A DNA stretch of 64,000 bases from NCBI GenBank assembly GCA_902802945.1, contig CADCOC010000068.1:21169-85168 (forward strand), in the 5' to 3' direction. The DNA comes from an uncultured bacterium. GTDB taxonomy: Bacteria; Verrucomicrobiota; Kiritimatiellia; RFP12; UBA1067. A program made the translations under genes and the position numbers. Numbering within the stretch: the stretch's first letter is position 1; every line of letters begins with the position of its first letter. The notes under the pieces were generated by a model, which was not told the origin of the DNA, ran no database searches, and saw only the letters and a program-made list of their open reading frames with translations. Positions 4,167 through 61,290 of this stretch are shown here, piece after piece.

Positions 4167-4278
4167 TTTGAACTTTCGTGCAGATGCACAAAAGTTCAAA
4201 GCGACACTTGCAACACAAACAAAAAACTGATACACTATTTCCGTTTTGAACTTTCGTGCATGTGCACACAACTTCAAA
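4167..4278 (+). promoter_or_regulatory. Promoter with paired 34-bp palindromes upstream of DUF4143 ATPase
   Basis: Palindrome 1 (4167-4200) has arms TTTGAACTTTCGTGCA and TGCACAAAAGTTCAAA, 15 of 16 matching. Palindrome 2 (4245-4278) repeats the left arm exactly, with a weaker right arm. Between them lie TTGCAA (4208-4213) and TACACT (4231-4236) with a 17-bp spacer. One palindrome thus ends 7 bp before the -35 box and the other begins about at the expected transcription start and ends 14 bp before the ATG. The most economical reading is an autoregulatory operator pair. A recognition site for the ATPase-nuclease itself is the alternative. Confidence 0.7.
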
Positions 4279-4292
4279 GCAGGGCCAAGACG

Positions 4293-28739: not shown

Positions 28740-30173
28740 CTAGAACAGAAGCTCGCGCACGTTGATGAGGGCGTTGAAATAGCCGGAAGCCTCGATTGTG
28801 GCGGAAAGGCGTCCATCGTAAACAAGTGCCGTACGGACGGAGATGCCTTTTGAAAGCGAAAGGGCATCAAGCTTCTCCTTCACCTCTTCCAGCACCTCTT
28901 CGCCTATCTCCTTGCGGCGCTTGACCTCCACAAGACAGCATGACTGCGCGGTCTGTATGAGAAGGTCCACCTGACATCCGCCCGTCTTCTCCTTTGCGCT
29001 GCCGCGCTTGACGAACGGCGCAGCCGATTCGATCAGCGCCCGCGACAGTCCGAGGCGTGGCAGGATTTCGCGGTAGTGGTTCACGACCAGGTTCTCAAAT
29101 GCCAGGCCGAGAACAGCGTCGATCCCCTTCAGCTGGTCAAGCGACGTAAAGGCGTAGGAGCCAGCGTCGATGATGTCCTTGACCGGCTCGATGAACTTGA
29201 GATAGAACTTCGTGTAGTTGTCCATGAGCCGGTAACGACGTTCGCGCACGGGACGCCCCGTCTCCGGATTGCGGCCATGGTCTCGGGCGACGAGTCCGGC
29301 CTCGACCAGACGATCAAGCGCGGCGGACGTGTTACCGCCCTTGGGCAGTCCAAGCTTCGATGCGACCTCGGCTGAAGTCCGGGGACCGTCGGCAAGACAT
29401 CGAAGCACCTGTCCCGTGAACGTCTGCTGCTCCGTGATCACGTCGAAGAACATGTCGTCGAAATCCTCGCGCAGAGGACTTTTCCGCGTAAAGCACATCC
29501 GACGGATGTTTTCGTTTGCCGACAGTGCGGGATTGATCTCCTCAAGATACCGAGGTACGCCGCCCGTCACGGAAAGGACGTCGAGGATGTCGCGGGAGGC
29601 CAGATTTTCGGCGGCAGCGCCCCAAAACTTGACACAATCCCTGAGCGGCAGTTCGCCGACGACGAAATCACCGCTTCGCCGTCCCAGATAGGCGCTGTTG
29701 TCGATGATGTTGTCCTTGATCCAGCTTGACACACTGCCGCAGAGAACGAGGATCAGCCGATCATGCTTTTTGAACATGGTATCCCAGGCAATCTTCAGAA
29801 TGTCCGGGAAGTGCGGATCGTAATGCGCCATCCACGAGATCTCGTCAAGAAGGACAACGGTCCGCCCATCGTCTTTGATTTGGCCGGCAAGTGCCTCGAA
29901 AGCCTGCGCCCAGTTGTCGTAAGATTCGGCGGTGGCATCCGATTGCAACGACAGGAACATTGCAAAATTCTGAAGTTCGTCGGCATTCGTAAAACCGCGC
30001 TTGGGCTTGATGCCCTCAATGCGTATGAATCGCGCAGAAGACTTGCGCGCGAACTCGGCGACAAGTGTCGACTTGCCAATGCGCCGTCGTCCACGGCATG
30101 TGACAAGGGAGGAAACACGCTTGCCCCACAGGGACATCATGTCTTCCAAAATGTCTTCGCGGCCATAAAACAT
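28740..30173 (-). CDS. ATPase_2 / DUF234 protein (STAND-like with PD-(D/E)XK-type end)
   Basis: 477 residues from ATG 30173 (AAGGAAG before it). Residues 28-36 (GRRRIGKST) are the P-loop; VVLLDEISWM near residue 110 is the Walker B; LVLCGSVSSW is the sensor. SELPLRD-like LPLRDC, the GGVPRYLEEI strand and a winged helix (TSAEVASKLGLPKGGNTSAALDRLVEAGLV) follow. The C-terminal DUF234 domain has CQVDLLIQ near residue 402 and CLVEVKRRK near 416, the D...ExK core of a PD-(D/E)XK fold. No partner gene is coupled. It has paired palindromes just upstream of its promoter. Confidence 0.88.
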   Translation of the reverse strand: MFYGREDILEDMMSLWGKRVSSLVTCRGRRRIGKSTLVAEFARKSSARFIRIEGIKPKRGFTNADELQNFAMFLSLQSDATAESYDNWAQAFEALAGQIKDDGRTVVLLDEISWMAHYDPHFPDILKIAWDTMFKKHDRLILVLCGSVSSWIKDNIIDNSAYLGRRSGDFVVGELPLRDCVKFWGAAAENLASRDILDVLSVTGGVPRYLEEINPALSANENIRRMCFTRKSPLREDFDDMFFDVITEQQTFTGQVLRCLADGPRTSAEVASKLGLPKGGNTSAALDRLVEAGLVARDHGRNPETGRPVRERRYRLMDNYTKFYLKFIEPVKDIIDAGSYAFTSLDQLKGIDAVLGLAFENLVVNHYREILPRLGLSRALIESAAPFVKRGSAKEKTGGCQVDLLIQTAQSCCLVEVKRRKEIGEEVLEEVKEKLDALSLSKGISVRTALVYDGRLSATIEASGYFNALINVRELLF

Positions 30174-30203: not shown

Positions 30204-30328
30204 AGTATAACATAATCCCATGGTTACGGCAACGGAAATTATCCCCAATAACGTTTTTCTGCATATTGGGGATAAATTTCGGCCTCTTATTTTATCCCCA
30301 ATGTACCATTTTGGTCTATTGGGGATAA
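30204..30328 (-). promoter_or_regulatory. Promoter plus paired TTATCCCCAATA palindromes upstream of DUF234 ATPase
   Basis: Minus-strand TTGCCG (30227-30232), 17 bp, TATACT (30204-30209). Starting 6 bp upstream of the -35 box is TTATCCCCAATA (30239-30250) with its exact complement TATTGGGGATAA (30264-30275). A second pair follows at 30292-30303 and 30317-30328; its left arm has one mismatch. Each arm pair has a 25-bp offset and the two palindromes have a 53-bp offset. This sequence is not shared with the other ATPase loci in the window. Confidence 0.75.
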
Positions 30329-30426: not shown

Positions 30427-33400
30427 CTACTTGACGTAAATATACGTGCCTTTGAACTTGACGTCGATGACGATGTTGCCGTCAGCATTGACCGAGATGC
30501 CCTTCACCCAGTCAGGATAGCCTTCGGCAAGCGAAACCGTGGCATCCGCGAAGTTGCCGCCGGACGTGAGCGCGTGCGGGCCACGGCGTCCGCGCTTGCC
30601 ATCCGTCGACGTTATCTTGACAACAACATTCGTCGTCTCGCCTTCGTCAAACGTCACGGTCTTGTTCTCCAGATTCAGCACGGGGTCATCCTTGGTCGTG
30701 TAGTTGAAGCCGAGTGCCGCACCGTCCTTGAACGTCAGGTTGCCGCCAAGCGTGACCGTGCCCGACTGCGCGACCTGAAGAGTCGTGCCGCTGTTGACGG
30801 TAATCTCGCCAGTCGTCAGGCACTTGCCCGCGTTGATTGCTAGTGTCGCCGTGTTCGTCACCGTCACACCGCCTGAGTAGGCCGACTTGCCGCCGGTACC
30901 CACAGGAACGGAGTTGACGATGACCTTGCCCGTACCGGCAATGTAGAGTTTCCCGTTGTCTGCGAAGCCGCTGTCGAGCGTAATCGTATGCGGCAAGCTG
31001 TCGCCATAGCCGGTTGTATTCAGTTCATGATGATCAATGGAACTTCTGACAACGGTATTGACGGCGATGGTGAAGTCGTTGGTGTACGGGTGGATCCAGC
31101 AATCGTTCGCACTGTTGGCGAGGCACCAGATGTAGTTCTGCCCGGTTATGCCTGAAGGACCAATTGCCCACTTCTGTGTCGTCGCGTCCTTGGTGGAGTA
31201 AAGCGTTGAGTCAAGCACGATTCCGCCGGCTACGATATATCCGTCTCCGACGTTCAGGACGGGATGGACACTGCCTCCGGTTATCGTGAGGATTCCGTCC
31301 ACGACAAACGTGCCGCCCGCATCAACCTTGTTGACGACTCCGTCACCATCCGCGTAGTTGATTGTCAGGTCACCGGCGACTACAACAGTCGAATCCGCAG
31401 CGACTGTGATTTTGCGGGTGTTGCTGAACGACGCCGCACGCATCTTGTCACCTGTGAAAGTGATGACACCAGAGCCCATCGTCACCGCGCCGAGCGTCGC
31501 GTCGATGTCGGCTTCGATCGTCGTCGCAACGTTGACCGCCGAGAAGTCCGCCGGATCGCCCGCGCCCGGCGCGACGTTGCCGAGCCAGTTGCCGGGCGTT
31601 GACATCTTGCCGTCGCCAGCGAAGCCCGTCCAGGCGAATCCCGTCGGGTTGCCGACCGTCAGAACAAGAGTATTCCCCTCCACGCTCCAGCTGTACGCAA
31701 GGTTGTCCGTCGTCGCGGGCACGAGCTTGTCCTGGACGTCCGCAACCGCGATGCCCGTCTTTTCGAGAATCCTGTACTTGCCCTGCGAGAAGTTGTTGTT
31801 CTTCGTGAGCGTCACAGTGCCGCTCGCGGGGAGCGTCATGGTCGTGACGGCGATCGGTACGACGCCGCTTCTGAACTCGTCAACGCGAAGTTCCGCGCCG
31901 GCCTCGAACGAAATATTGGCAAGCGCGACTTGGCCAGTACCTTTTGTCGTAAACTTCGCGCCATTCCTCACCGTAATTGCGCGCGCGACCGACAACCCAT
32001 TATAGACATACGTCTCGCCCCCTTCGCATACGAGCGGAGAAGAGGACGTCTGGTTGCGACTGATGTGGAAGATTCCGCTGCCGACCTTGGTGATTGCGCC
32101 CAAGCCCTGCGGATCGGAGTTGAGATCGCCATTGTATCCGTTGGTATCCAGCACGAGGCCGCCCGCATCGATCGTGATCGGCTTGATGGCCGTCCCGCCT
32201 GCACCCATCGTCTCGAACGCGGGGGACGAGTACAACCAGTCCGTAGTACCGGCGCTCACAGTGTAGCGCACATTGTTGAGACGTATGGCGTTGAGCGGAC
32301 GATCGTGATAGACCCTGAGAACCTTTGTCGTGATGATGCAGTTCTCGAAATCCGCCGTGTAGGAGCCCGCCGTGTTCGCGCCCACGACATTGTGCCCGAT
32401 GGAAATGCCATAGGCAATGTAAATGACCGAATTCGTTGCGGCGAACACGCCCGTCGGGCAGAGGGGGTTCTTGTTATTTTCATCGTATCCAAAGCGGAAA
32501 CTTCTGTTGTTCAATACGCGCAGCGTAGAATCGACGACGCGGAAGTACAGAGACGGGTCCAGATAGTCAGTGGAACCGCCCGGGGCATCGCGGCAGGTGA
32601 GCAAGTACGTCTCGCCGCCAAACTCCATGAGGCCGCCGTCCGTCACGTTGATGTTCAGCCGTCCTTCGAGCGAAGTCTGCATGATCCAGTTGTTCACGTT
32701 CTTCGTGGCCTTCACCGTGCCGCCTGCGATATTGATTGTCGCCTCCGTGACGGTGTTGAACGAATAGTGGTCGGCAAATTCCAGCGAAGCGCCCTTCGCG
32801 ACCGTGAGTACGGACGGGGCGTTGTCCTTGTTGATGACCATATTGCCGCTGTTCGAGTGGACGATGTTCGTGAGCGTGACATTTGCGCCTTTCGCGATGA
32901 AGGCCTGAAGCTGCGCGTCGAACGTCTGCCCGGCATAGTCGAACGTCACGGGCTTCGCCGGGTCTGTGCCGAGCGTGAGGTTCGCGGGAACGACCGTCGC
33001 GCCGGACGCCATCTTGAGCGTTCCTTCCGAGACAGTCGTCTGCTCCGTACGCGAAGAGCCGAGCACGAGCGTGCCCGCGCCTGTCTTTACAAGTGCGTTG
33101 GTCGTGGGGGCCGAAATGGTTGCCGAGACGCCTGGGGCAACCGAGACAACCGGGACGGTGAGCGATGCGGAGCCATTGACCGTCGCATCGGCGGTGAAAT
33201 CGGTCTTCGCAGGCGAAGCGTCAGCAGCGAGCGTCACCGTGGCGTTCGCGATGTTGAAGATGGCGTTGTTGCCGTCGGCCCACGTGGCGGCCGCGCCGCC
33301 CTTCGTCCAGGCGTCGGCATCGCCCCAGTTCGTCTGCGTACCATTCCACGTGTAGTCCTCGGCGACGATTGTCAAAACAAGATTACCTTCGACGACGGCG

Positions 33401-34724
33401 ACTGCATTCGGGAGGACGAGGCTGCCAACCATCGGCTGGACGTTGAACACATCCGCGCTTGCGGCCGGGAAAAGCGTGAACGACGCGCCCGTCGCGGGAA
33501 TCGCGGAGAAGTCGATGACGATGTTCGCCTTGTTTTCTGCCGTCGCCGTGGTCGTGACAGTCGCGGGGAGCGCATCGACGCCCGTCGCGTCGCCATTGAG
33601 GTAGATTGTCGAGCCCGCACCGAGCGCGAGCGAAGTAAAGCCACATGTCGCCGAAACCGCACCGTTCCGCCGCCCGCCACCGTGAACGCGCCCGCCGTAT
33701 TCTCGACGGCGTTGATGGCGGCGGGGACATGGAAAGTTCTGCCACCGGTGTTGATTGTGCCGCCGTTGGCGTCAACCCGGACGTCAACCGTTGCGTCGAT
33801 CAAGCCGTAATTAGAGGCATCGCCATTGACCTCGATACTGCCACCGTCCAGAATGACGGAGGCCGATGCGGCATTCTGGTTGGTTATGCGCCTCGTCTTG
33901 AACGTGCCGCCGTAGAGGTTCAGCGTGCTGGTCGAGCCGTTCTCGAGCCGCGTCCATTTGCCGGCAGGGACCAAGAACGTGCCGCTTCTCTGAATAACCG
34001 TCGCCGTACCGCTGCCAAGTCCAATCTTAAAATCGCCGGTCATCGTCCAGTCTCCACCGGTCTTGTCCACCGTGAACGTGTAGAGCATCATGTCGCCTTG
34101 ACACGTGATGTTCGCGTTCGTGGCATAGAGGTCGCCCTTGAAGAAGTCGCATGTCTTGGTCGCCGTGATGTTGACGGGGCCGAGATAGCCGTTGGCGTCA
34201 TTGTTCTGGTCGTCGAGAACAAGATGGCCAGTCATGTCATACTTGACGATTTCTTTCCCCAAAGTCGCATGACCGCCGATGGTCAAGTGCCGTGTTTTCA
34301 GGGTCACCGCATAAAAGCGAACGGAAGAGCCGGCCCCGGCGTAGCCAATGCAGATGGAATCCACGTCGTAGTCCTTGTTGTTGGATGGGGAGGAGTTGTC
34401 GAAGGTGTATTGGTTTTGCCCCTGGAAACGCCAATACCCTCTATCGGGGACGTCGTAAAAACACAATCCCGTATTGGAAGTCTCTGTGACATTGGCAGAA
34501 AGATAAATGAAATCTCTCTTATTCCCTGTCAGATTGCCCTTCTTGAAGTAACGTCGGCCTGAAGTACCGTTCCAGTTCCCTGAAGTCGCCCAATTGCTGT
34601 CTATGTTGCCCGTCCAATTTCTTGCCGCCTCGGCGGTCGTCGCCGCGCCGAGCGCGAGTACCACGGCAAGGAGGGAAACTACGGTTTTACCCCCCATGAG
34701 GATTTTGCCAGTTTTCGCTTTCAT
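30427..34724 (-). CDS. Giant secreted surface protein with autotransporter-associated beta-strand repeats (one frameshift)
   Basis: Two overlapping minus-strand frames form one gene of about 1,430 codons. Frame 1 starts at ATG 34724 (AAAGGAG before it) with a signal peptide (KTVVSLLAVVLALGAATTAEA). Near 33660 it loses the frame at GGGTV; the other frame continues with GFTSLALGAGSTIYLNGDATG and joins the 30427 frame. The body is made of TG(A/S)GTLVLG, (V)SEGTLKMASG, ADFSAV and repeated WNG/WTG modules, typical of autotransporter-associated repeats in PF12951-like passengers. No translocator barrel is seen. Its role is inferred as adhesion or glycan display. The break is either a real lesion or an assembly error. 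Confidence 0.82.
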
Positions 34725-34906: not shown

Positions 34907-36274
34907 CTAGAAATTGAAGACGATAAGGTGAACCATGTAGACTGGCAGATACTCGATGCCGTTCTCGCTGAAATAAGAACTTGCCGTGACCACGTATCGT
35001 GTACCAAGCCGTTTTGAGTACGCCGCGATGAATCGGTCAAGCGAAACATGCTCGCGGAAACGGGAACTCTTGACCTCAATCGGACATATCTTTATTCCAT
35101 TGCGAAAAAGAAAGTCAATTTCCATCGTCCGTTCCGGTCGTTGGGCGTCCTTTACTGAATGAAAAAGCAAATCAACGCCCTGTGCCGCCAATGCCTGTGC
35201 GACCGCGTTCTCAAAGAACATCCCCTCGTTGATTCCAAGATTGTCGTACAAGACGCCGCGAAGAAGCCGCCCGTCCACATCGCCCGTGCCGGACATCGCC
35301 TGCGTGAGAAGAAGTCCCGTGTCGTGTGAATAGCACTTGAACAACGAACTCTCAAGGCTCATTTCCAACCCGACATCAGGATTCGTGGAATTATACGCGA
35401 TGTTGGCAACCATCGCGTCCGCAAGCCACAGGAAGGCGTTCTCGTACCGACGCATCCTGGCGTTGGACGAAATGTCGGACAGATGAAACTTTTTCTCCCT
35501 CGAATTGAGCGCCCCGGGAATGTTCCTGAACACGGCCCTCACCTTCGCCGCATAGCCCTTGGCGTATTTCCCGATGTCTTTTTGGTAGAGCTCAAGTATC
35601 TCGCGCTTTGCGAGTTCGGACGACTCCAGCTTGCGTTCCCGTCCCTCTAGGTACGCTTCCACGGACTGCGGCATGCCGCCAACGACCATATAGGCGCGAT
35701 AGAGCTTCATCGCCTTTTCATGGAGATAATCCGGCAATGCCCTCCGTTCCGCGTATGCCTCGCGGATCTTTTCCTTGAGAACGCCTTCGCCGAGTGCATC
35801 GAGGAACTCCTCGAAGTCAAGGGGATAGAGTTTCTGCGAATGCTCCTCAGAGGGGATGACGATGTCTTCAACGTTCTCTTTTATGCCGAGAAGAGACCCA
35901 GTCTCAATGTAGTGGTATTTGCCAAACGCCATCAATGCCTTGATGGCCTCGCGCGCGGTCGGATATCGCTGGACTTCATCGAAAATAAAGCATGTACGTC
36001 CTGGTATCAATCGAACACCTTGAATCAGGGCAAGACGCCCAATCGTGTCTTCTATTGACGATTCTTCCTCGAATGCCCTCTTGCTTTCCTTCGTGATTTT
36101 ATTCTTCAGCGAGAAATCAATGTACACAAATGTTTCATATTCATTCTTTGCAAAGCGCGTCACCAGATGCGTCTTGCCGACGCGCCTCGCCCCTTCGACC
36201 AAAAGTGCGTACCGGTCTGCCATCCGCTCCTTCCAGTCCAACATCTTCTGATAAAACTTTCTTTCAAATTCCAT
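34907..36274 (-). CDS. AAA_14 / DUF4143 ATPase, second full copy
   Basis: 455 residues. The P-loop is GARRVGKT (28-35) and the Walker B CFIFDEVQ (95-102); YIETGSLLGI is the sensor. YMVVGGMPQSVEAYLE, RAVFRNIPGALNSREKKFHLSDI and RRYENAFLWLADA form the middle. The DUF4143 end has MFFENAVAQALAAQG and EIDFLFRNGIKICPIEVKSS near residue 385, a clear D...ExK nuclease-like core. It differs much from the copy at 4293, so it is an older paralogue. A strong promoter and three 33-bp-spaced repeats lie upstream. A truncated close relative is at 60727-61143. Confidence 0.9.
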   Translation of the reverse strand: MEFERKFYQKMLDWKERMADRYALLVEGARRVGKTHLVTRFAKNEYETFVYIDFSLKNKITKESKRAFEEESSIEDTIGRLALIQGVRLIPGRTCFIFDEVQRYPTAREAIKALMAFGKYHYIETGSLLGIKENVEDIVIPSEEHSQKLYPLDFEEFLDALGEGVLKEKIREAYAERRALPDYLHEKAMKLYRAYMVVGGMPQSVEAYLEGRERKLESSELAKREILELYQKDIGKYAKGYAAKVRAVFRNIPGALNSREKKFHLSDISSNARMRRYENAFLWLADAMVANIAYNSTNPDVGLEMSLESSLFKCYSHDTGLLLTQAMSGTGDVDGRLLRGVLYDNLGINEGMFFENAVAQALAAQGVDLLFHSVKDAQRPERTMEIDFLFRNGIKICPIEVKSSRFREHVSLDRFIAAYSKRLGTRYVVTASSYFSENGIEYLPVYMVHLIVFNF

Positions 36275-36309: not shown

Positions 36310-36440
36310 AATATACCATATTTAATGGCTCTGGTCAAGCACCACGAGGCAGTACATGTCACGAAATGGAATGTTCAATATAGCTGATTCGTCACGAAAT
36401 GGAATGTTTTACATCGTCTATTTGTCACGACAATACCAGC
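36310..36440 (-). promoter_or_regulatory. Promoter with three 33-bp-spaced repeats upstream of DUF4143 ATPase
   Basis: Minus-strand TTGACC (36333-36338), 17 bp, TATATT (36310-36315). Three plus-strand repeats begin at 36358, 36391 and 36424: GTCACGAAATGGAATGTT twice exactly, then GTCACGACAATACC. The spacing is 33 bp both times, about three helical turns, so all sites face the same side of DNA. The GTCACGA core recurs at the decayed ATPase at 61.2 kb. Confidence 0.78.
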
Positions 36441-36504
36441 TTCATATATCCATGCTTCTATATTTTCCAAAAATCTTTTTAGAAATCTGTCAAAACCGCC
36501 ATGC

Positions 36505-36673
36505 GCTCTCCGTCAGGATGCGCGAGGCGAGACGCCTCATGACGGAAGATCGGCTCAGCATCAAGGAAGTTGCCGCCCGTACGGGATTCTCGTCACAGGC
36601 CTACTTCTCCGCCGCCTACCGCGCCTTCTACGGACACCCACCGTCCCAGTCCCGAAACACGAAACGCGCTTAA
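36505..36673 (+). pseudogene. C-terminal fragment of an AraC-family regulator
   Basis: The frame reads RMREARRLMTEDRLSIKEVAARTGF, SSQAYFSAAYRAFYGHPPSQSR, which is the second helix-turn-helix of an AraC DNA-binding domain. The rest of the gene is absent; the frame upstream runs into the ATPase repeats. The ORF that seems to start at 36356 is therefore an artefact of repeat plus fragment. It suggests the ATPase module landed in, or beside, an AraC-type gene. Confidence 0.7.
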
Positions 36674-36742: not shown

Positions 36743-38026
36743 TTAGCGGGCGTTGGCCCCGTAGCCGTCGGCCTTGGCGGACCACGCGCAGAGGAAGAGA
36801 ACCATGCCGACTATCGCGAACGCCGCGATGGAGCAGAGCGCGACGCCCCATCCGAAACGTTCCTTGATAAGCGCAATGCCAATGCCGGAAACCGTCGTGG
36901 AAAGGTAGCCCATGATCCCAGCAAATCCGGTCGCAAGCGCGGCGGCCTCCTTCGTCGCCTGGTTCGCGACGATGATCCCGGTCAGCGCCTGCGGACCGTA
37001 GATGCAGAACCCGGCCCCCATCAGAAGGAGCGTCGCCTGCCATGCCGGAGCGCCTTCGGGGAGACTCCAGAATCCAAATGCGAAGAGCGCCGCGAAGAGC
37101 ATGAAGAACACACCCGTGCGGCATCCGCGCCCCTTGAAGACCTTGTCCGTCACCCATCCGGCGCAGATCGTACCGACGACGGCGGCAAGCTCGAACGCGA
37201 TGATCATGAGTCCGCCCTTGGCGACGGGGATTCCCTTCATCTGCTTGAGGAACGTGGGGCCCCAGTCGAGGAATCCGAACCGGACGACGTACACGAAGAA
37301 GTTTGCAAGCGCAACGAGCCAGATCACCCTGTTGCCGAACACGAGGCGCCTGCGCTCCGCCGCCGTCAGGCCATTCCCCGTTCCCCGTTCCCCATTCCCC
37401 GTTCCCCGCTCCCCATTCCCCACATCCAGCGGAGGCAATCCCGCCTCGACGGGCGTCTCCTTCACGCAGAGGAAGGTGAACACCGCCGCCGCCACCGCGA
37501 GCGCGGCGGGAACCCAGAAGCACCAGCGCCAGCCGAAGCCGAGCGCGAACAGCGCGGAGCAGAGCCCGAGCGCAAGCACCGCGCCCACGCTGTGGGAGGC
37601 GTTCCAGACCGACATCTTGGTCGCCAGTTCCTTCGGGTGTATCCAGTGCGCGAGCATCTTCGCGCACGGCGGGAAGCCCATGCCCTGCGCCCAGCCGTTC
37701 AGAATCCAGAAGAGCGCAAAGAGCAGCGTCAGACTGGAACAGCCGAAGAGGAAGTTGGTCGCGGCGGAAAGCGCAAGGCCCACGGCCATGAAGATGCGTC
37801 CGTTGAGCCTGTCGGCCCAGAAGCCGTTTATGAAGCGGCTCAGTCCGTAGAGGACTCCATGGACAGTCATGATGACCCCGAGCGCGTAAGTGGAGATGAC
37901 GCCCTCCTCCAGCATGGCCGGCTGTGCCATCGAGAGGTTCTTGCGCGCGATGTAGAAGAATGCGTACGAGATCGCGCTGAACGCGATGAAACGCCACTGG
38001 GCCCTTATGAACTTCTTGTCCTTCAT
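36743..38026 (-). CDS. MFS transporter, organophosphate:Pi antiporter type (GlpT/UhpT-like)
   Basis: 427 residues from ATG 38026, overlapping the HAD gene stop (ATGA). Twelve hydrophobic segments are visible. The opening WRFIAFSAISYAFFYIARKNLSMAQPAM and SRFINGFWADRLNGRIFMAVGL follow the organophosphate antiporter family, and GWVTDKVFKGRG is the second-half MFS motif. In the central cytoplasmic loop (about residue 202) lies a repeated GERGTGNG insert encoded by GGGGAAC/GGGGAAT words. Gene order suggests it imports glycerophosphodiester products such as glycerol-phosphate. It is the last gene of a four-gene coupled operon. Confidence 0.88.
   Translation of the reverse strand: MKDKKFIRAQWRFIAFSAISYAFFYIARKNLSMAQPAMLEEGVISTYALGVIMTVHGVLYGLSRFINGFWADRLNGRIFMAVGLALSAATNFLFGCSSLTLLFALFWILNGWAQGMGFPPCAKMLAHWIHPKELATKMSVWNASHSVGAVLALGLCSALFALGFGWRWCFWVPAALAVAAAVFTFLCVKETPVEAGLPPLDVGNGERGTGNGERGTGNGLTAAERRRLVFGNRVIWLVALANFFVYVVRFGFLDWGPTFLKQMKGIPVAKGGLMIIAFELAAVVGTICAGWVTDKVFKGRGCRTGVFFMLFAALFAFGFWSLPEGAPAWQATLLLMGAGFCIYGPQALTGIIVANQATKEAAALATGFAGIMGYLSTTVSGIGIALIKERFGWGVALCSIAAFAIVGMVLFLCAWSAKADGYGANAR
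37371..37421. repeat. In-frame GGGGAAC/GGGGAAT repeat inside transporter gene
   Basis: About 50 bp of CCCCATT/CCCCGTT (plus strand) words inserted in frame. The product repeats GERGTGNG in the loop between transmembrane halves. The same words recur in frame at 39967-39996 in the G1P dehydrogenase gene. Confidence 0.8.
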
Positions 38027-41255: not shown

Positions 41256-44200
41256 TCACTTGATGATGATCATCAGACCACCATGTTTAACCGTACCATA
41301 CACGATGCCGTCGCGTATGCTCGCCTTGCCCACAAGGCCACGCGGCAGGGCGGAGCCGTTGAGAGTGACGCGCCAGTGCGCACCCGCGAGCGCGTCTGCA
41401 GTCACCACCGGCACACACACGCGCACACTCTTCGGGTCGGCAAGGTCGCCCGTGTAGGGCACATCAAGCGTCACCACGCCGTCCGTCGGCAGTTCCGCCG
41501 CCGTCAGCGTGAGCGGGCGCGTCTGCCCCGGCGCAGTCGTGAAACCGCCGCCCGCCTCAATCGTGGCGCGCGCTACAGTGCCCGTGCCGCCCAAATAAGC
41601 CCCAGCCTGCACGATGACGTTCGTGGAGTTGAACGTGGCCGCGTCCACGAGCAGCGTGCCGCCGTTCACGCGCGTCGCCTCGGAGTAATATTTGTTCGCC
41701 GCCGTGCAGCAGTTCAGGCGCAGCGTTCCGGGACCGGTCTTCAGCAGACCCGTACGGAAGTAGGTGTTGGCGTAAAGGCTGTTAGACGAATTTCCGGCCC
41801 AACGCACCGCGGGCTTGAGGACCACGCCAATCGTCACGTCCGGCTCCGCGTTCTGCGTGATGTCCGCAACATGGAACTCCGTCTTGCCGTGCTGGTAGAT
41901 CTTCTCCCCGTCGATTTCCTGATAGGAGTCGTTCTGCCAGCCAAGCGAGAAATAGCAGGTGCCGCCGACATTCTGCAGGTCGTAGGGGCGTGTGCCGTCG
42001 AAACGGACACGCTGTGCGAACACGAAAGTCCCGTAGGGCCCGATTTGCTCAGTGTCGTAGCCCGCTCCAGTGTTGGCGCCGTTGTAGTCGAGCGTGGCGT
42101 CGTACAGATCGAGAAACGGCATGGCGTTGACCTTTCCGCTCGTCTGCCGTATCGTTCCGTTGGTGACGGCGAGCGTGAAGTTGTTGACCGCGTTCGCCTG
42201 TCCGAACTGGTCGTTTTGGGTGATCCAGAGCGCTCCGCCGTTGACGGAAACGCTGAGGTCCGAGCTGGAAAGGTTTCCAATCGTCGATTTCTCCGGGCAC
42301 TCGAAATTAGATTCAGTATTTGACAATGCGGTTGCCAGCTTGACGGTTCCCTCGACGATTTCAATGCGCCCCGTCGTGGTGCTGGAGGCGTTTGCCAGTT
42401 CGAGCATTCCAGGTCCCGTCTTGCGCATGTTGAAGGCGACGGCGCTATGCTTAGTGCCCCAATTGGGCGCATCGGCAATGCGCGCGTTGAACTTGAGGTC
42501 GGTCGTATCGTCGGCGGTGCCTTTCCCGCTGATCTCCGCGACGTAGCAGTCGGAAGCCGAACCATCGCGCTTCGCAAAGAAAAGCGTCGCGTTGTCGGTA
42601 TTGGCGAAGGTGAGCGTGTTGGTGCCGATGACGGTGAGACCGCCGCCAAAGCCGAGTGTCGGCCACGCACCGGTGACGCCCGAGTAGGAAACCGTGGCGT
42701 TCTCAAGGATGAGCGGACCGAATCCGTTGGTCTTGTTCGCCGTCTGTTTCAGCGTCCCTCCGTTGACGTGTACCGTGACATTATTCTCGGCGTAGAACTG
42801 CCCCATCGTATCACTGGCCCCGAGATGCAGCGTCGCGCCGGGATGGACGGTAAACGTGTGCGGATAGCGTTGCGCGCCGAACACGCTGCTTCTGTCGGCC
42901 GCGTCGGTCGCATTTCCGGTATTCATAAAGAGCGTACCTTCCACAACGTCCACGTCGCCAGTATAGGTGGAGTTGTATGCGTGCGCCGTACCATCGCCGA
43001 GTTCGAGTGTACCTGCGCCCGTCTTACGGAAACCGGATGCGATGCCCGGATCGGTCGTGTTGCCGGACGACCAGATGATCGGCACACGAATGATGACGTC
43101 GGAGTTGTCGTTCCCCGTCATGTCAGGTACATCGATCACGCCCTGCCTCTGCGCCCCGAACTTGCCGATCGACATTCCCGAACTGTTGTTGATTCCTGAA
43201 CCGGAAGCAGCGAATACGACTTGCCGATCTCCGGAAAAGTAGAGGTTGGCCATGCTGAACGAACCCCAGAAAGTCTTTGAATTCTGGGCACCGACGGTTC
43301 CGACAATGAGCGTACTGCCGCTTTTATAGTTGTTGAGTCCGCCGTGGAAATTCACGGTCGAGTTGTGGAGATAGACATCACCCGCGTTGAAACAGAAGTC
43401 CTTCGTAAGCTCCAGCGTGGAGTTGTAGCACTTGAGAGCGGCCTGGATCGGCGTCAAACTGCGCCCGCCGCCGCCGAAGGGGTTCTTGCCTTGAATGTTG
43501 AGCGTGGCGTTGGAGACCACGACGGAGCGCGGCACGCGCGGGTTGCCGAGCGACCCGGTGACGACGTCGCTGTTGTCATTATCGGACGGAAGAAAGATTT
43601 CGCCGCCCGCGAGCAACACGTCGCCCGTGAAGGTATGGTTGATGCCGGAGATCGTGAGGTTGCCCTCTTGGTACTTGCTGAAGGAGCCTGTTCCGGCGAT
43701 AACGCCCGCCCCGGCGAGCGTGTAGTCCGTCGCATTGTCGAAGAGGATAGAACCCGGTGTCACCGTCGTGCCGCTGGGTATGGTCACGGTATAGGCGGAG
43801 GCGTTGTCGTTGAAGACGGCGTCATTGCCGTTCTGCCAGGTCTGCGACGCCACGCCGTCAATCGTCCAGTTGGCGTCGGCAACGTTCCAGTTGCCGCTGG
43901 CCGTTCCCTTCCAAATCGTGCCCGTCACGGGATCGTCGTAAACGGAGAGATCGACCACTGAAGGCGCTACGGAGAGCTGTGCCTCGCCAGCGAGCAACGA
44001 ACAAGCGATCGGGCCGCCGCCCGCCTCGAAGTCGGTGGCGACGGCAGAATAGCGGATGATGCCCGTGACCGTATCGTAAACGCCTGCGCGTCCGCCCAGC
44101 ATACAAGGCAGGTAATTGCAGGCGAGCATCGCATTGGTCGTGACGCTGAAACCGTAGAGGTAGGCGCCATTCGCAATATTCCTGACTTCCGTTCCGGTGT

Positions 44201-45002
44201 TATTTATTTTTACGTAATGCTGAACGAAGACGAAAAGGTTCGTGACGGAGGTGGCGGAGCAGGTCGTTGACCATTTTTTGTCGACGATCTGCGCACCCGT
44301 CACAAGGTTTGTGATGACGATGCGATGTTTCTCCTTCGCGCTCAGCGAAATTCTGACGCGATCTGTCGTGAAAGCCCCGGCCTCTTTCCAGTCGCCTTTG
44401 CCGTCCTTGCAGGCGGAGGCGAATTTGCCGCTGCCATTGATGTAGCAATCGAAGGAAAATCCCGCACTATCGTCATCACCAGAACTGATGCCGAAGAAAC
44501 GTTGCTGCCGCGTGGCATTGGAATCGAATTTCGTGTCCATCACGGCAACGGAGGTTCCGTTCGGCTTGATGCCTGTGTCGATATACTGCGTGCCGGTCTG
44601 GCGCAACGACTCGATCAACGTGTCGTAGGGCGCCGCCGAGGATGTAAGGAACACGCGGCAGACCGTATAACCCGCGCCAGTCAAAAGCGGCGAGACGGGA
44701 ATCGTCGCGGAAGTCGCGTCTGCCGCCACGTTGCAGCCGCGCTGGAGCGCGGCCCAATTCGCGAGCGTGTCACCCTTGTCCTCCGTGTCGTAGGCGATGT
44801 AGAGCGCGTGTTCGTCGCCGGGTTCGCCGGCCTCGAACGTGACGGCGAGGGACGACACGCCGTCACGTGGCGTGAGATGCCGGACGCCCGTGATCGAACG
44901 CGCCTCGACCGACATGGTCGCACCCATCACGACGACCGCGATGGCCAGCACGGCTGCGGCGAACGCGCGCCTCACACTGTAGTTTCTATCGATTCTACTC
45001 AT
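41256..45002 (-). CDS. Giant secreted surface protein, autotransporter-associated beta-strand type, second
   Basis: 1248 residues from ATG 45002 (AGGAG before it); the frame is open 150 codons further upstream but this lies in the divergent promoter region. A signal peptide (FAAAVLAIAVVVMGATMSVEA) leads. Residues about 115-300 form a lectin/LamG-like domain (TQYIDTGIKPNGTSVAVMDTKF ... RFFGISSGDDDSAGF). The rest is beta-helical repeats: (N)WNVADANWTIDG, FRKTGAGTLELGDG, KTGPGMLELANAS, VVEGTLFMNTGNA, LRLN. It ends VKHGGLMIIIK. No barrel is visible. It lies directly upstream of the GDPD operon and divergent from a XylR-type regulator that may control it. Confidence 0.82.
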   Translation of the reverse strand: MSRIDRNYSVRRAFAAAVLAIAVVVMGATMSVEARSITGVRHLTPRDGVSSLAVTFEAGEPGDEHALYIAYDTEDKGDTLANWAALQRGCNVAADATSATIPVSPLLTGAGYTVCRVFLTSSAAPYDTLIESLRQTGTQYIDTGIKPNGTSVAVMDTKFDSNATRQQRFFGISSGDDDSAGFSFDCYINGSGKFASACKDGKGDWKEAGAFTTDRVRISLSAKEKHRIVITNLVTGAQIVDKKWSTTCSATSVTNLFVFVQHYVKINNTGTEVRNIANGAYLYGFSVTTNAMLACNYLPCMLGGRAGVYDTVTGIIRYSAVATDFEAGGGPIACSLLAGEAQLSVAPSVVDLSVYDDPVTGTIWKGTASGNWNVADANWTIDGVASQTWQNGNDAVFNDNASAYTVTIPSGTTVTPGSILFDNATDYTLAGAGVIAGTGSFSKYQEGNLTISGINHTFTGDVLLAGGEIFLPSDNDNSDVVTGSLGNPRVPRSVVVSNATLNIQGKNPFGGGGRSLTPIQAALKCYNSTLELTKDFCFNAGDVYLHNSTVNFHGGLNNYKSGSTLIVGTVGAQNSKTFWGSFSMANLYFSGDRQVVFAASGSGINNSSGMSIGKFGAQRQGVIDVPDMTGNDNSDVIIRVPIIWSSGNTTDPGIASGFRKTGAGTLELGDGTAHAYNSTYTGDVDVVEGTLFMNTGNATDAADRSSVFGAQRYPHTFTVHPGATLHLGASDTMGQFYAENNVTVHVNGGTLKQTANKTNGFGPLILENATVSYSGVTGAWPTLGFGGGLTVIGTNTLTFANTDNATLFFAKRDGSASDCYVAEISGKGTADDTTDLKFNARIADAPNWGTKHSAVAFNMRKTGPGMLELANASSTTTGRIEIVEGTVKLATALSNTESNFECPEKSTIGNLSSSDLSVSVNGGALWITQNDQFGQANAVNNFTLAVTNGTIRQTSGKVNAMPFLDLYDATLDYNGANTGAGYDTEQIGPYGTFVFAQRVRFDGTRPYDLQNVGGTCYFSLGWQNDSYQEIDGEKIYQHGKTEFHVADITQNAEPDVTIGVVLKPAVRWAGNSSNSLYANTYFRTGLLKTGPGTLRLNCCTAANKYYSEATRVNGGTLLVDAATFNSTNVIVQAGAYLGGTGTVARATIEAGGGFTTAPGQTRPLTLTAAELPTDGVVTLDVPYTGDLADPKSVRVCVPVVTADALAGAHWRVTLNGSALPRGLVGKASIRDGIVYGTVKHGGLMIIIK

Positions 45003-45116
45003 TGGATTTCTCCTGGTTGGACTCTGTGGGGACACTCCCCTAAAAAGGGACACAAACATTATACCCGAAACCGCCCTTTGAACGTCTCGGAATTTATTGT
45101 AATTTTTCATTTCGAC

Positions 45117-45145
45117 TTGCGTTTTTTCATGAGGCCTGTTATAAT
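45117..45145 (+). promoter_or_regulatory. Promoter of the XylR-type regulator
   Basis: TTGCGT (45117-45122), 17-bp spacer, TATAAT (45140-45145). The ATG follows only 8 bases later, so the transcript would be leaderless or nearly so. A minus-strand TATAAT at 45058-45063 would serve the surface-protein gene, giving a divergent arrangement. Confidence 0.65.
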
Positions 45146-45153
45146 GCGCGCCC

Positions 45154-46293
45154 ATGAAGAAAATGCGTAACGTGCTGCTGCTTCTCACACCGTCCAACCC
45201 CAGACGGCTCGAGGGCATTGCGCTTTTTGCCAGGAGCAGGTCGTGGCACCTCACGATTGCCGACCACCTGACGCACTCGCTGGACGGCTGGAGCGGCGAC
45301 GGCGCGCTCGTCACCCTGCGCGACGACGCGGGGATGCTCTCATACGTGCGCAGGCTCCGCAGGCAGGGTGTCCGCATCGTTGACCTCAGCCTGTCTCGCC
45401 CCGACGTCAACTTACCCCGCGTCGCGGGCGACAACGCGGCGATCGGGCACATGGCGGCCGATCATCTCAGGTCGAAGCGGTATAAAAACGCGGCGTGGTT
45501 CTCGACGGGATGGGGACACCAGCACGAACTGCGCCATGCGGCGTTCTCCGAGGCGATGGAGGGCCACTGCGAAAAGTGGGCGTGGGCGCTCGCCTCGCGC
45601 AAGTCCGGCGCCGACAACTGGAACGCGCTCTCTCGCTGGCTGAAGGCGAAACTATGCAAGGCGCCGCGTCCTTTGGCCGTGTTCTGCTTCGACGACGCCG
45701 ACGCCTCGCGTGTCGAGTCCGTCGCCATCGACGCGGGACTGTCGGTGCCGGGCGACGTGGCCGTGCTGGGCGTCGGCGACGACATGGTGATTTGCGAGAA
45801 CCAGGCCGTGCCGATTTCATCCGTGAAGCATGACATCCATCGCATCGGCTACACGGGCGCGGCCCTTCTGGACCGGCTGATGAACGGGGGCGAGCCGCCG
45901 TCTGCGCCGATCCTCGTCAAGCCGAGCGGCGTTGCCGAGCGGGTGTCGACCGACACGCTGGCCATCTCGTCGGACACCGTCCGCCGGGTGCGTGACATCT
46001 TCACGGCCGACATGGCAAACCCACCGTCAACCGCGCAGCTTGCGGAACGCCTGGGCGTCTCACGCGCCATTCTGGACCGTTCCTTTGCGGATGACATCGG
46101 CCTGTCTCCTTCCAAGATGCTGATGCGCCTGAGGCTGGACGAGGCGAAGCGCCTGATGGCGACCACCGATCTCACGCTCGCCGAGGTCGCCGCGCGGCTT
46201 GGCTACTGCAACGCGGCGTACTTCACCAACATCTTCAGGGACTCGGAGGGCGTCGCCCCCAAGGAATGGCGCAAGCGCCAGCATACCAGATGA
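45154..46293 (+). CDS. XylR/AraC-type transcriptional regulator with LacI-like sensor domain
   Basis: 379 residues. The N-terminal about 270 residues form a periplasmic-binding-protein-like sensor (MRNVLLLLTPSNPRRLEGIALFARSR, GDNAAIGHMAADHL, DVAVLGVGDDMVICENQAVPISSVKHDIHRIGYTGAALLDRLM), as in XylR and other sugar-responsive regulators. The C-terminal AraC domain has two helix-turn-helices: LAERLGVSRAILDRSF and LTLAEVAARLGYCNAAYFTNIFR. It is divergent from the large surface protein and the GDPD operon, which are likely targets. The ligand is presumably a sugar. Confidence 0.88.
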   Translation: MKKMRNVLLLLTPSNPRRLEGIALFARSRSWHLTIADHLTHSLDGWSGDGALVTLRDDAGMLSYVRRLRRQGVRIVDLSLSRPDVNLPRVAGDNAAIGHMAADHLRSKRYKNAAWFSTGWGHQHELRHAAFSEAMEGHCEKWAWALASRKSGADNWNALSRWLKAKLCKAPRPLAVFCFDDADASRVESVAIDAGLSVPGDVAVLGVGDDMVICENQAVPISSVKHDIHRIGYTGAALLDRLMNGGEPPSAPILVKPSGVAERVSTDTLAISSDTVRRVRDIFTADMANPPSTAQLAERLGVSRAILDRSFADDIGLSPSKMLMRLRLDEAKRLMATTDLTLAEVAARLGYCNAAYFTNIFRDSEGVAPKEWRKRQHTR

Positions 46294-51380: not shown

Positions 51381-52420
51381 GGGCGTATAGTATACCATAA
51401 CCGCCGCCCGGCGTGGGAATAGAATCTTTTCCAGCCTTCGTCAAGCGTATGGCGGTTGCGCGGACAGTCTGGATGCCCGCGCTTGCGCGCGCCAAACGCC
51501 GCATACGCGGGGGACTCGACGATATCCTTCCAGTCGTTGCGCATCACGTTGCCAAGGCAAAGGCCCGGCTCCACGTAGAAGTCGCACGGAAAAACGTCGC
51601 CGTTCGCCTCTACCACTAGGTAGTGCCGGCAGTCGCTCGCGAACTGACAGAGCGTCGGCGCGCCAGTGAGCATCTGCGACACAAGCGAATCGAACGTGCG
51701 CACGCTCACGCGGTGTACGTCCCCACACTTCATCCATTCATCAAAGAGACGCACCATGAAATCGCCCCACTCCTCGCCGGAAACGACGAACGGCTCCGGC
51801 CACGTGCATTCAATGTACTGGTGATACAGACAACCGAGCTCGTCGCGGATGTAGTGGTAGAGCTTCTCCGGCTCGCGGACTTCGTTCTTCGTGACGAGCT
51901 GGAGCACGTTCACCGCCACGCCCGCCGCAACCAACCGCTCGTATCCGCGACGGAACTCCGGCGTCCTGCCATGCGGACTCACCCCGACAAGCCACCCAGC
52001 CTCCGCGAAGAAGCGCGCAAGGGAATCCGTCACGAGCGTCGCGTTCGTCTGCACGGAAAAAGTGATGCCATCCCCAAGTTCCGCCGCGCGACGGAAGAAA
52101 TCCTCGCCCATGAGCAGCGGCTCGCCGCCCTGGAACGCGACGGCGTGTTCGGCGATAGGAAGTGCGCGGTAGGTCGTGAGCATCCGTTCAAGAACGGCAT
52201 CGGACATGTGGGACGACGGCGCGGCTGGAATCCGCGCCCTACCATCTTGCGGCGCGGCTGGAATCCGCGCCCTACCATCTTGCGGCGCGGCTGGAATCCG
52301 CGCCCTACCATCTTGCGGCGCGCTCGGTGATCGCGCCCTACCGGGGCGGTAAAAGCAGTAGGGACAGGCGAGGTTGCAGTCCGCGCTGGCGGGCTTGACG
52401 AGAAGGGAGAACGGCCTCAT
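51377..52420 (-). CDS. Radical SAM anaerobic sulfatase maturase-like enzyme
   Basis: 347 residues from ATG 52420, which overlaps the sulfatase stop (ATGA). The SAM-cluster motif CNLACPYC is near residue 15, then FQGGEPLLMG and VQTNATLV. The SPASM-type part has CQFASDCRHYLVVEANGDVFPCDFYVEPGLCLGN, as in anaerobic sulfatase-maturating enzymes, which turn the sulfatase Cys or Ser into formylglycine. The final Cys set is reduced to HPDCPRN, so the last cluster may be altered. Between the SAM motif and MSDAVLERM is a repeat-derived insert (GRARIPAAP x3). The gene is coupled to its likely substrate and to an aminotransferase. Confidence 0.85.
   Translation of the reverse strand: MRPFSLLVKPASADCNLACPYCFYRPGRARSPSAPQDGRARIPAAPQDGRARIPAAPQDGRARIPAAPSSHMSDAVLERMLTTYRALPIAEHAVAFQGGEPLLMGEDFFRRAAELGDGITFSVQTNATLVTDSLARFFAEAGWLVGVSPHGRTPEFRRGYERLVAAGVAVNVLQLVTKNEVREPEKLYHYIRDELGCLYHQYIECTWPEPFVVSGEEWGDFMVRLFDEWMKCGDVHRVSVRTFDSLVSQMLTGAPTLCQFASDCRHYLVVEANGDVFPCDFYVEPGLCLGNVMRNDWKDIVESPAYAAFGARKRGHPDCPRNRHTLDEGWKRFYSHAGRRLWYTIRP
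52205..52346. repeat. In-frame GC repeat insert in the maturase gene
   Basis: Three tandem copies of a 33-bp unit (GCGGCGCGGCTGGAATCCGC...) followed by a block-A word (GCGCTCGGTGATCGCGCCC). The protein gains (Q)DGRARIPAAP three times and GRARSPSAP. Reading frame is preserved. The insert is in a surface loop just after the SAM-cluster Cys. Confidence 0.85.
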
Positions 52421-59670: not shown

Positions 59671-60711
59671 CTACGGCTCTCTGCCCAGTCCGGGCGTCGC
59701 CAAAAATGCGTCCGACACATCTACGATTGGCGGCTCGCTGACGGCTGGCGGCTCGCTGACGGCTGGCGGCTCGTCTTGTGGATCGTTCGGCACCCTTTCG
59801 TTCCACAGCCGCAGCAACGCCGTCATCGCAAGTCCGAACACCAGAACGGCGGCGGACGTCCACCATATCCAGCGTCTGCGCGGCTTGCAGCCAAGCGCAA
59901 GCGGCGGCAAGAAGCGTTTGGACGGTTCCTGCGCCAAAAGAGCCGTGAAAAGCGGCTTCCACGCGGGGTTGAACGGAGCGAGTAGATCAAATGCGTTTCT
60001 GCCCGGCTCATACCAGAGGCCCGTGAGCAAACGGAAGAAGGTCATGCCGAGGGCGTAGTAATCCGATGCCGGCGTGGGTATGCCGCCAAGCCTGACCTCC
60101 GGGGCAAGATACATGACGGTGCCGAGTATTCGCCGCTCGTTCAAAGGCTCACCCGTGGCAATTGTACGGGTAAGGGCGATGTCTTCGCGCAACTGGGCAT
60201 CGAGGATGCGCGATATGCCGAAGTCGGAAAGGACGGCGCGCCCATCCTTGCCTACGAGGATGTTCTCCGGCTTGATGTCGCGGTGGACAATTCCGGCGGC
60301 ATGAATGGCATTGAGTGCTTCGCACATGTCGCCGTACCATCCTGCCAGACGCTCCTCGGAAGTGCCACCTTTTGCGTCCTGTGCATCGGCGAGATTCAAC
60401 GGTTGTCCGCTTGGGCCCGTCACGAGATCCATGGTGAAATACGGCGTACCGTCAGCCTCGTCGAAGGAGAGGTCGTGTACGCGAACGAGCCTTGGGTGGT
60501 CGAGGCGGGCGAGCAACTTCCCCTCCGCGAGAAAGCGCTTGCGGAGAAAATCGGCGTTACGCCCGTCCGTGCGGAAAAGCTTGAGGGCGCGATGGACGCC
60601 AAGGTGCTCATGGACTACCTCGTAAACAGCACCCATTGCGCCTTTGCCCAGCAGCCTCACGAAACGATACGGTCCAATCTGTCGCGGCATGTTTTCGTCA
60701 AAACCGTTCAT
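59671..60711 (-). CDS. Membrane Ser/Thr protein kinase (PknB-like)
   Basis: 346 residues from ATG 60711; an upstream TTG is the only other start. The kinase domain has LLGKGAMGAVYEV (Gly loop), HRALKLF (Lys), IVHRDIKPENILV and VLSDFGISRIL (DFG), then TVMYLAPE. A membrane segment follows at WIWWTSAAVLVFGLAMTALLRL. The tail has a repeated EPPAVS segment. It starts about 16 bp from the end of a decayed ATPase gene. The two following genes encode an FGE-domain secreted protein and a sigma factor, suggesting one signalling unit. Confidence 0.88.
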   Translation of the reverse strand: MNGFDENMPRQIGPYRFVRLLGKGAMGAVYEVVHEHLGVHRALKLFRTDGRNADFLRKRFLAEGKLLARLDHPRLVRVHDLSFDEADGTPYFTMDLVTGPSGQPLNLADAQDAKGGTSEERLAGWYGDMCEALNAIHAAGIVHRDIKPENILVGKDGRAVLSDFGISRILDAQLREDIALTRTIATGEPLNERRILGTVMYLAPEVRLGGIPTPASDYYALGMTFFRLLTGLWYEPGRNAFDLLAPFNPAWKPLFTALLAQEPSKRFLPPLALGCKPRRRWIWWTSAAVLVFGLAMTALLRLWNERVPNDPQDEPPAVSEPPAVSEPPIVDVSDAFLATPGLGREP

Positions 60712-60726
60712 AATCTTTTCATCCAA

Positions 60727-61143
60727 TCACAAGCAATGCGCCATGTAGAAAGGCAGGTATGTAATACCGTCCTCCTCATGGAAATCCTCGGCGTTCTCAT
60801 AGCGGCGCATGCGGGCGTTTGCGTCAAGGTCGGAAAGACGGAACTTCTTCTCTTTGGAATTCAGGGCACCGGGAATGTGTCGAAATATCGCCCGTACCTT
60901 TGGCGCATACCCCTTCGCGTATTTCCCGATGTCCTGCATGTACAGACGAAGGATCTCCCGCTTCATAGCCTCCACCGCCTCAAGCCGATGGTCTCCGCCA
61001 TGCAGATACGCCTCGACCGACTGTGGCATCCCGCCCACGACCATGTGTTGCCGCGCAAGCGCCTTGGCCTTCTCGTGAAGATCCTTCCCAAGCGGACGCC
61101 TCTCCCCATATCGTTTCCGCACAAGAATTGACGAATTTTCCAT
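60727..61143 (-). pseudogene. Internally deleted DUF4143 ATPase relic
   Basis: 138 codons from ATG 61143 (AGGA before it). The start MENSSILVRKRYGERRP is joined to DLHEKAKALARQHMVVGGMPQSVEAYLHGG, then IGKYAKGYAPKVRAIFRHIPGALNSKEKKFRLSDL and RRYENA. The last part is DGITYLPFYMAHCL. Against the copy at 34907-36274 this lacks the whole P-loop domain and the D...ExK nuclease-like part. Both deletions keep the frame. The promoter and the three spaced repeats upstream are intact, so decay hit the protein first. Confidence 0.82.
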
Positions 61144-61166
61144 GATCCTGTCTCTTTTCGGCGCAA

Positions 61167-61290
61167 ATTATATCAAATCCAATCTTAACCGTCAAACGCC
61201 TTGTCACGAAATCGGCATAGTTGTATTGAGCGTTCTGTCACGGAATTGAGCATGTTGGTCATGCCAATTTGTCACAAAATTGCCGTACCT
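61167..61290 (-). promoter_or_regulatory. Promoter with three 34-bp-spaced repeats upstream of ATPase relic
   Basis: Minus-strand TTGACG (61190-61195), 17 bp, TATAAT (61167-61172). Repeats begin at 61203, 61237 and 61271: GTCACGAAATCGGCATAGTT, GTCACGGAATTGAGCATGTT and GTCACAAAATTGCCGTACC. Both offsets are 34 bp. The GTCACGAAAT core equals that at 36358 and 36391. The repeats start 8 bp upstream of the -35 box. Confidence 0.78.

Follow-up and report, generated by a model that had tools for sequence, protein, structure and literature searches.

Gene-private 33–34-bp repeat arrays at the promoters of AAA_14/DUF4143 ATPase genes: a candidate self-addressed regulatory module

AAA+/STAND ATPases such as MalT, and also IniR, oligomerise on several direct repeats at promoters. 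Iteron plasmids carry phased direct repeats beside the gene of the Rep protein that binds them, and Rep proteins autorepress; in C-protein restriction-modification systems and autoregulated toxin-antitoxin systems, paralogues are insulated because each has a self-specific operator at its promoter. With respect to how a protein may read such sites, PD-(D/E)XK restriction enzymes usually do so by loops beside the active site, and archaeal Orc1/Cdc6 proteins, which act in replication origin licensing, combine AAA+ and winged-helix domains and bind DNA at repeated elements.

The AAA_14/DUF4143 ATPase gene described here lies, together with a phased array of direct repeats, in a 64,000-nucleotide stretch of DNA (the window). 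MalT controls genes other than its own and reads DNA via a LuxR-type HTH at its C-terminus, whereas in the window family a PD-(D/E)XK domain would be the reader, and a second target was not observed; the LuxR-type HTH and central TPR sensor of MalT-type proteins have no counterpart in the window protein, for which Pfam gives AAA_14 and DUF4143 only and the AF2 model ends in PD-(D/E)XK. The family shares the AAA+ and winged-helix domains of Orc1/Cdc6, however, the Orc1/Cdc6 match contains no PD-(D/E)XK domain. As in iteron systems, the repeats stand next to the gene of the putative binding protein, but the proteins are not Rep, and they have many chromosomal paralogues with a private repeat each; a replication origin is an unlikely role for the array because many differing copies occur per chromosome. 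In contrast to C-protein and toxin-antitoxin systems, a single ATPase would be both regulator and effector, and no partner gene (antitoxin or methylase) is conserved in 80 loci. CRISPR arrays have repeats of at least 24 bp, unique spacers and cas genes; here the repeats are 18 bp, the gaps 15 bp, and there are no recurrent neighbours.

The window protein matches the PDC-S01 profile (PADLOC, E 8.9e-105, residues 1–451), a single-gene phage-defence candidate by its PADLOC label. One survey, in its passages on PDC-S01, places it fourth in frequency among prokaryotic defences (29,494 bacterial and 9,986 archaeal occurrences), classes it as not validated, states that most PDCs still await experimental validation, and in those passages mentions neither promoter arrays nor a recognition code (PMC12988326). 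A passage of a rumen genome survey gives PDC-S01 as the most frequent individual defence locus (PMC13356809), and a Thermus AAA_14/DUF4143 gene is among the transcripts that change when plasmid DNA is present (PMC4406477). No account of such arrays was found in literature on DUF4143, AAA_14, COG1373 and upstream-repeat autoregulation.

The window gene, its promoter and its repeats

On the forward strand the 18-mer GTCACGAAATGGAATGTT occurs exactly twice, at 36358–36375 and 36391–36408, and GTCACGA is found at 36424, again 33 bp on, where the remainder of the copy (36424–36441) is degenerate (Table 1). The first-pass annotation had described three repeats, spaced by 33 bp and about 20 bp from the TTGACC-N17-TATATT promoter of an AAA_14/DUF4143 gene. 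The spacing is confirmed, and the gap between the −35 TTGACC and the nearest repeat measures 19 bp, but as to number, two copies are strong whereas the third keeps GTCACGA and has otherwise degenerated. Dinucleotide-shuffled windows contain at most one match to the repeat at up to three mismatches (mean 0.04). In the whole 5.8-Mb genome the 18-mer, at three mismatches or fewer, is present at just its two sites, and a reversed control pattern at none; rather than being common elsewhere without ATPase genes, the repeat is private to its own gene.

Table 1. Positions of ATPase loci, predicted promoters and upstream repeats in the window
Feature	Position	Strand	Remarks
AAA_14/DUF4143 ATPase gene	34907–36274	−	455 aa; profile matches and AF2 model
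−10 box TATATT	36310–36315	−	predicted; last GTG 44 bp upstream
−35 box TTGACC	36333–36338	−	predicted; N17 spacer to TATATT
Repeat copy 3, promoter-proximal	36358–36375	−	AACATTCCATTTCGTGAC in gene sense
Repeat copy 2	36391–36408	−	AACATTCCATTTCGTGAC, identical to copy 3; 33 bp upstream of copy 3
Repeat copy 1, degenerate	36424–36441	−	AGCTGGTATTGTCGTGAC in gene sense; 33 bp upstream of copy 2
Remnant of close relative of window gene	60727–61143	−	138-aa ORF, 70% identical over query residues 170–280
Array of remnant, three copies	61203–61288	−	ending TTTTGTGAC / TTCCGTGAC / TTTCGTGAC, 34 bp apart
Promoter of remnant, TTGACG and TATAAT	61190–61195 and 61167–61172	−	predicted; after array
Second DUF4143 ATPase gene	4260–5624	+	class III, GMRRCGKS type
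Palindrome TTTGAACTTTCGTGCA-GA-TGCACAAAAGTTCAAA	4167–4200	+	upstream of second DUF4143 gene

The encoded protein scores above the Pfam gathering cut-offs for AAA_14 (E 2e-20, 73.5 bits, cut-off 27) and, following it, DUF4143 (E 3.5e-20, 72.8 bits, cut-off 28.1). An AF2 model with 80 homologues (pLDDT 91, pTM 0.91) predicts an AAA domain (1–160), a helical linker, a winged helix (about 242–316) and a PD-(D/E)XK domain (about 335–450), in this order. Walker residues are near-invariant among homologues, and E355, D387, E400 and K402 are conserved in 158–164 of 165. The E..D..E-x-K catalytic motif of the PD-(D/E)XK fold is placed by the model on the core strands, where D387 and E400 lie on two predicted strands, the second of which ends with K402, and the helix before these carries E355, and nuclease activity is predicted; residues 375–380 form the loop immediately before the D387 strand. 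A fold search returned Orc1/Cdc6 (2v1u, 2qby), ORC subunits, MalT (8bob) and STAND immune proteins with low TM-score, the whole architecture occurring in no solved structure. The window protein gave no match in a PDB sequence search, and none among PHROGs and NCBIfam profiles.

The array is immediately preceded by a C-terminal remnant of an AraC-type regulator (36500–36673, plus strand), which is oriented head to head with the ATPase gene and may mark the landing site of the ATPase module. A sequence of about 50 bp and GTTCCCCATTCCCC type, within an MFS transporter gene (37371–37422), is present in dozens of copies, 88–98% identical, in this genome and in sister genomes; an empty-site search with the upstream flank gave just partial matches to the MFS gene and the dispersed repeat.

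The window holds further ATPase loci. A decayed relative of the window gene (60727–61288, minus strand) still keeps its three-copy 34-bp array and promoter. The left half of the palindrome preceding the second DUF4143 gene is repeated 78 bp downstream, across the start codon, and a piece of another DUF4143-type ATPase (423–800, plus strand; E 1e-18) has no obvious upstream repeats. The gene at 28740–30173 (minus strand) encodes a sister-family ATPase with ATPase_2 and a MarR-type HTH; the archaeal ATPase_2 family resembles the window family in joining an ATPase to a winged helix. Twin long palindromes, TTATCCCCAAT..ATTGGGGATAA, 53 bp apart, stand upstream of its promoter (30239–30328), whereas the class of the window gene has 33-bp phased direct repeats, and this suggests that the habit of private operators may reach the ATPase_2 sister family too. 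Other perfect direct repeats, at 52217–52290 (33-bp period, 73 matching), 7126–7161 (33-bp, 35 matching) and 59728–59756 (18-bp, 28 matching), seem to have no connection with ATPase genes. The regions 30427–33450 and 41256–45452 (minus strand) encode large proteins that contain autotransporter-type PATR repeats.

Arrays in paralogues, across phyla and at promoters

There are 32 DUF4143 matches in the genome, and three layouts are seen in the DNA upstream of these genes. Class I, comprising the window gene and at least 12 others, has direct repeats every 33–34 bp whose sequence differs per gene (e.g., AACCTCTTGAAATCGTG in L009, GGGGTCTAGGAATCGTG in L016, CCCGCCGAAACGTGATGA in L007 and GTTGACAAATCGTGGG in L010); in class II (L004, L005) the period of the direct repeats is 23 bp; and class III, six genes including the second DUF4143 gene of the window, has palindromes. 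Two further class I repeats, searched genome-wide, have exact copies at their own gene exclusively. The repeats of two paralogues have one or two isolated 2-mismatch matches elsewhere (C32, C275, C146), with no DUF4143 gene nearby, and these look like chance. Upstream of L030 (G000:C121), two class II repeats with 23-bp spacing and a promoter are followed by the start of a truncated class II-like ATPase ORF, which we take to be another orphaned array.

A GTDB genome scan provided 80 homologue loci, from Kiritimatiellota/Verrucomicrobiota, Clostridia, Bacteroidota, Actinomycetota, Spirochaetota, Fibrobacterota, Fusobacteriota, Desulfovibrionaceae, Aeromonadales and archaea, and the 260 bp upstream of each gene were self-aligned for the best period, which was 33–35 bp in 74 of 80. 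The search for paralogue-specific spaced repeats that the first-pass annotation had proposed was positive in 65 of 79 homologues once a score threshold was applied, every strong self-repeat having a period of 33–35 bp; the control values at this period are 3/433 for sequences preceding other ORFs of these loci and 0/357 for random windows. Chains of at least three copies are present in 94 of 114 further homologues. Arrays contain 3–7 copies; of the 389 steps from one copy to the next, 366 measure 33 or 34 bp. About one gene in six has no array detectable by the tests used. The array persists in sister genomes and beside most homologues from the various phyla: orthologues of 87% identity carry nearly the same repeat at 33 bp, in two or three good copies each, relatives of 63–67% identity retain the 3' half TCGTGAC with a changed 5' half, and arrays of 33–34 bp period with other motifs accompany most of the divergent homologues, those with HNYEIDF and HRNDIEIDF loops. 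Bacteroidota-wide sampling at E 1e-85 yielded nothing beyond the starting genome. Alignment of 158 genes gave the consensus AAAnYYKYnWWWWnGTGnAA, in which GTG at positions 14–16 is nearly fixed, positions 10–12 are A or T, and positions 5–9 differ from gene to gene; the gene-specific repeats thus have a ..WWWWnGTG core in common.

Promoters were predicted, the −10 box being picked by consensus match. Between the last GTG and the −10 box, distances cluster at 0–1, 9–12, 22–25 and 31–34 bp (44 bp in the window gene), and array and −10 box are helically phased with a period of 10.5–11 bp (Rayleigh score 20.8 with each 70% cluster represented by one gene; a score as high in none of 400 shuffles), with the window array on the same helical phase as those of the homologues. 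Since the distance varies in a helical pattern, it is the helix face that is conserved, not the distance, in keeping with the same-face sites that had been claimed for the window array. The last repeat abuts the −10 box in many genes (GTGATATAAT) and fills the −35/−10 spacer in some, and many Bacteroidales have arrays that extend on both sides of the predicted −7 box of the Bacteroidota-type promoter, as far as the start codon; others stop a short way before the promoter. For the window gene and its near relatives, the whole array lies upstream of −35, the usual activator position, and ends 6–8 bp from −35 in this clade and 19 bp from it in the window gene. Overall, the varied promoter overlap favours a promoter-blocking oligomer over an activator of class I or II, without proving it.

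The genes themselves are solitary and scattered. No neighbour family recurs in the 80 loci, and upstream neighbours are randomly oriented (38 on the same strand, 38 on the opposite strand). Homologues occur on plasmids, e.g., in Segatella copri DSM 18205, where the array has three copies at 33 bp, and the Segatella copri WP_006848557.1 gene has three TCAAAACGTG-type copies upstream, 33 bp apart. No relatives were found in viral contigs; homologues are encoded by 13 short contigs (H21–H33) of human faecal origin that carry no annotation and the label "Bacteriophage sp.", and that are putative phage.

Co-variation between repeat bases and protein residues

Protein columns were scored against repeat positions by mutual information with average-product correction over non-redundant pairs, in a set of 155 sequences (effective 72). 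The top couplings connect residue 377 with position 8 (z 10.9), residue 380 with position 6 (z 9.0) and residue 375 with position 9 (z 7.4), the largest z in 30 permutations being 5.3. Position 8 is G in 37 of 47 cases with R or K at 377 and in 6 of 68 otherwise, position 6 is G in 35 of 37 cases with R380 and in 7 of 78 otherwise, and Y375 pairs with G at position 9. As first guess the winged helix had been considered as the reader of the variable part; this found no support, the top couplings lying instead in the loop before D387.

The associations hold in held-out homologues, with 16/17 against 3/17 for R/K377 and G8 (Fisher P 1.3e-5) and 5/6 against 4/28 for R380 and G6 (P 0.0024), both couplings having been found on the first set alone; for Y375 and G9 the figure (6/7 against 1/27, P 3.5e-5) is a consistency check and not a fully independent test, because this coupling was chosen on the combined set. 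Phylogenetically independent differing pairs are concordant at 14:0 for 377 with position 8 and 8:0 for 380 with position 6, and protein identity correlates with repeat similarity (Mantel r 0.43). The repeats were registered from DNA alone, hence the residue-specific associations are not an artefact of registration, and R/K–G and the other residue–base associations make chemical sense. The window protein, with K375, A377 and P380, and its repeat, with A, C and T at positions 9, 8 and 6, agree with the expectation of the code; exceptions are L055 and L321, which have R380 without G6, and some S377 proteins with G8.

The array seems to be read by a loop of the PD-(D/E)XK domain of DUF4143, and the statistical evidence is strong that each protein would recognise its own array through this nuclease-fold domain. 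We consider it very probable that the encoded protein recognises its cognate array, and the proposal of the first-pass annotation that the ATPase itself is the binder gains support from co-variation that persists in held-out data. Its wider suggestion, an undescribed module of ATPase and cognate repeats, agrees with an array that is family-wide, private and co-varying with the protein.

Possible roles of the array

Arrays, privacy, phasing and co-variation are computed results, and their best explanation would be a one-gene, self-addressed regulatory module, to which we assign a probability of about 0.68. It would act probably by paralogue-insulated transcriptional autoregulation, with repression as the probable form. 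That the array serves autoregulation is likely in its own right, and the sign of the effect is, overall, somewhat more probably repression than activation. As for the physical steps that we infer (binding, oligomerisation, regulation by repression, nuclease activity), the PD-(D/E)XK loop would bind the repeats of its own promoter, with residues 375, 377 and 380 reading positions 9, 8 and 6, and we infer that the winged helix probably touches the invariant GTG. The 33–34 bp spacing, about three turns, would align 3–7 protomers on one face of the DNA, so that a head-to-tail oligomer, controlled by the ATPase, is expected. Since the array overlaps or abuts the −35/−10 region on a fixed helical face, this oligomer should shut off, or at least set, its own transcription, and since paralogues differ in both reading residues and repeats, many could coexist per genome without cross-regulation. 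The output of the ATPase protein is probably a nuclease or defence function, as PDC-S01.

Co-variation by itself does not separate autoregulation from another function in cis, such as self-cleavage. Positive autoregulation, in which a MalT-like activator would polymerise on boxes upstream and bring RNA polymerase to the promoter of its own gene, would suit the arrays in the clade of the window gene, which stop short of −35 in helix phase with the promoter; direct repeats in this position are typical of activators, and MalT is among the fold-search matches; however, in other clades the last repeat occupies the −35/−10 spacer or the array extends round the promoter to the start codon, and many promoters keep good −35 and −10 boxes, and we hold this model to be unlikely. 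It is improbable that the array is a substrate whose repeats are nicked or cut by the PD-(D/E)XK domain, in homing-like mobilisation or copying or as a defence self-tag: arrays locked to the promoter by helical phase, on its upstream side only in the loci seen, argue against it, as do an insertion boundary and a downstream partner repeat that were not found and empty-site comparisons none of which succeeded, although the co-varying loop directly precedes the catalytic D387, E..D..ExK is near-invariant, and the genes are solitary and scattered, with many paralogues and some on plasmids.

Direct repeats adjoining an AAA+/winged-helix gene, and Orc1/Cdc6 on origin DNA as best structural matches, recall an iteron-like replication or partition origin with an Orc1/RepA-like initiator, a highly improbable identity for an array that is tied to a promoter and exists in many different copies, in solitary contexts, on one chromosome. 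Scarcely credible, despite a few near-perfect copy duplications (e.g., L014 and L091), are functionless leftovers of tandem duplication or a CRISPR-like remnant, which are contradicted by the same 33–34 bp period with unrelated sequences across phyla, by protein–repeat co-variation and by promoter phasing, none of which neutral duplication can produce.

A further tentative possibility, doubtful as a whole, is that AAA_14/DUF4143 proteins are programmable-looking, self-addressed ATP-dependent nucleases that form a single-gene immune or selfish module. The address would be the 33–34 bp array, read with a simple residue-to-base code by a short loop beside the PD-(D/E)XK active site, and diversification would proceed by rewriting loop and array together; release from the array, upon infection or damage, would derepress the gene and free the active nuclease.

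For the family, the regulatory module favoured here would mean that a nuclease-fold domain seems to act as a sequence reader, and private operators would explain how at least 30 paralogues per genome avoid cross-talk. DUF4143/PDC-S01 genes are among the most frequent listed as anti-phage candidates, and private operators with a residue-to-base code would give them a biochemical handle, the DNA ligand of each paralogue being predictable from sequence, and would offer a natural set of orthogonal repressor–operator pairs.
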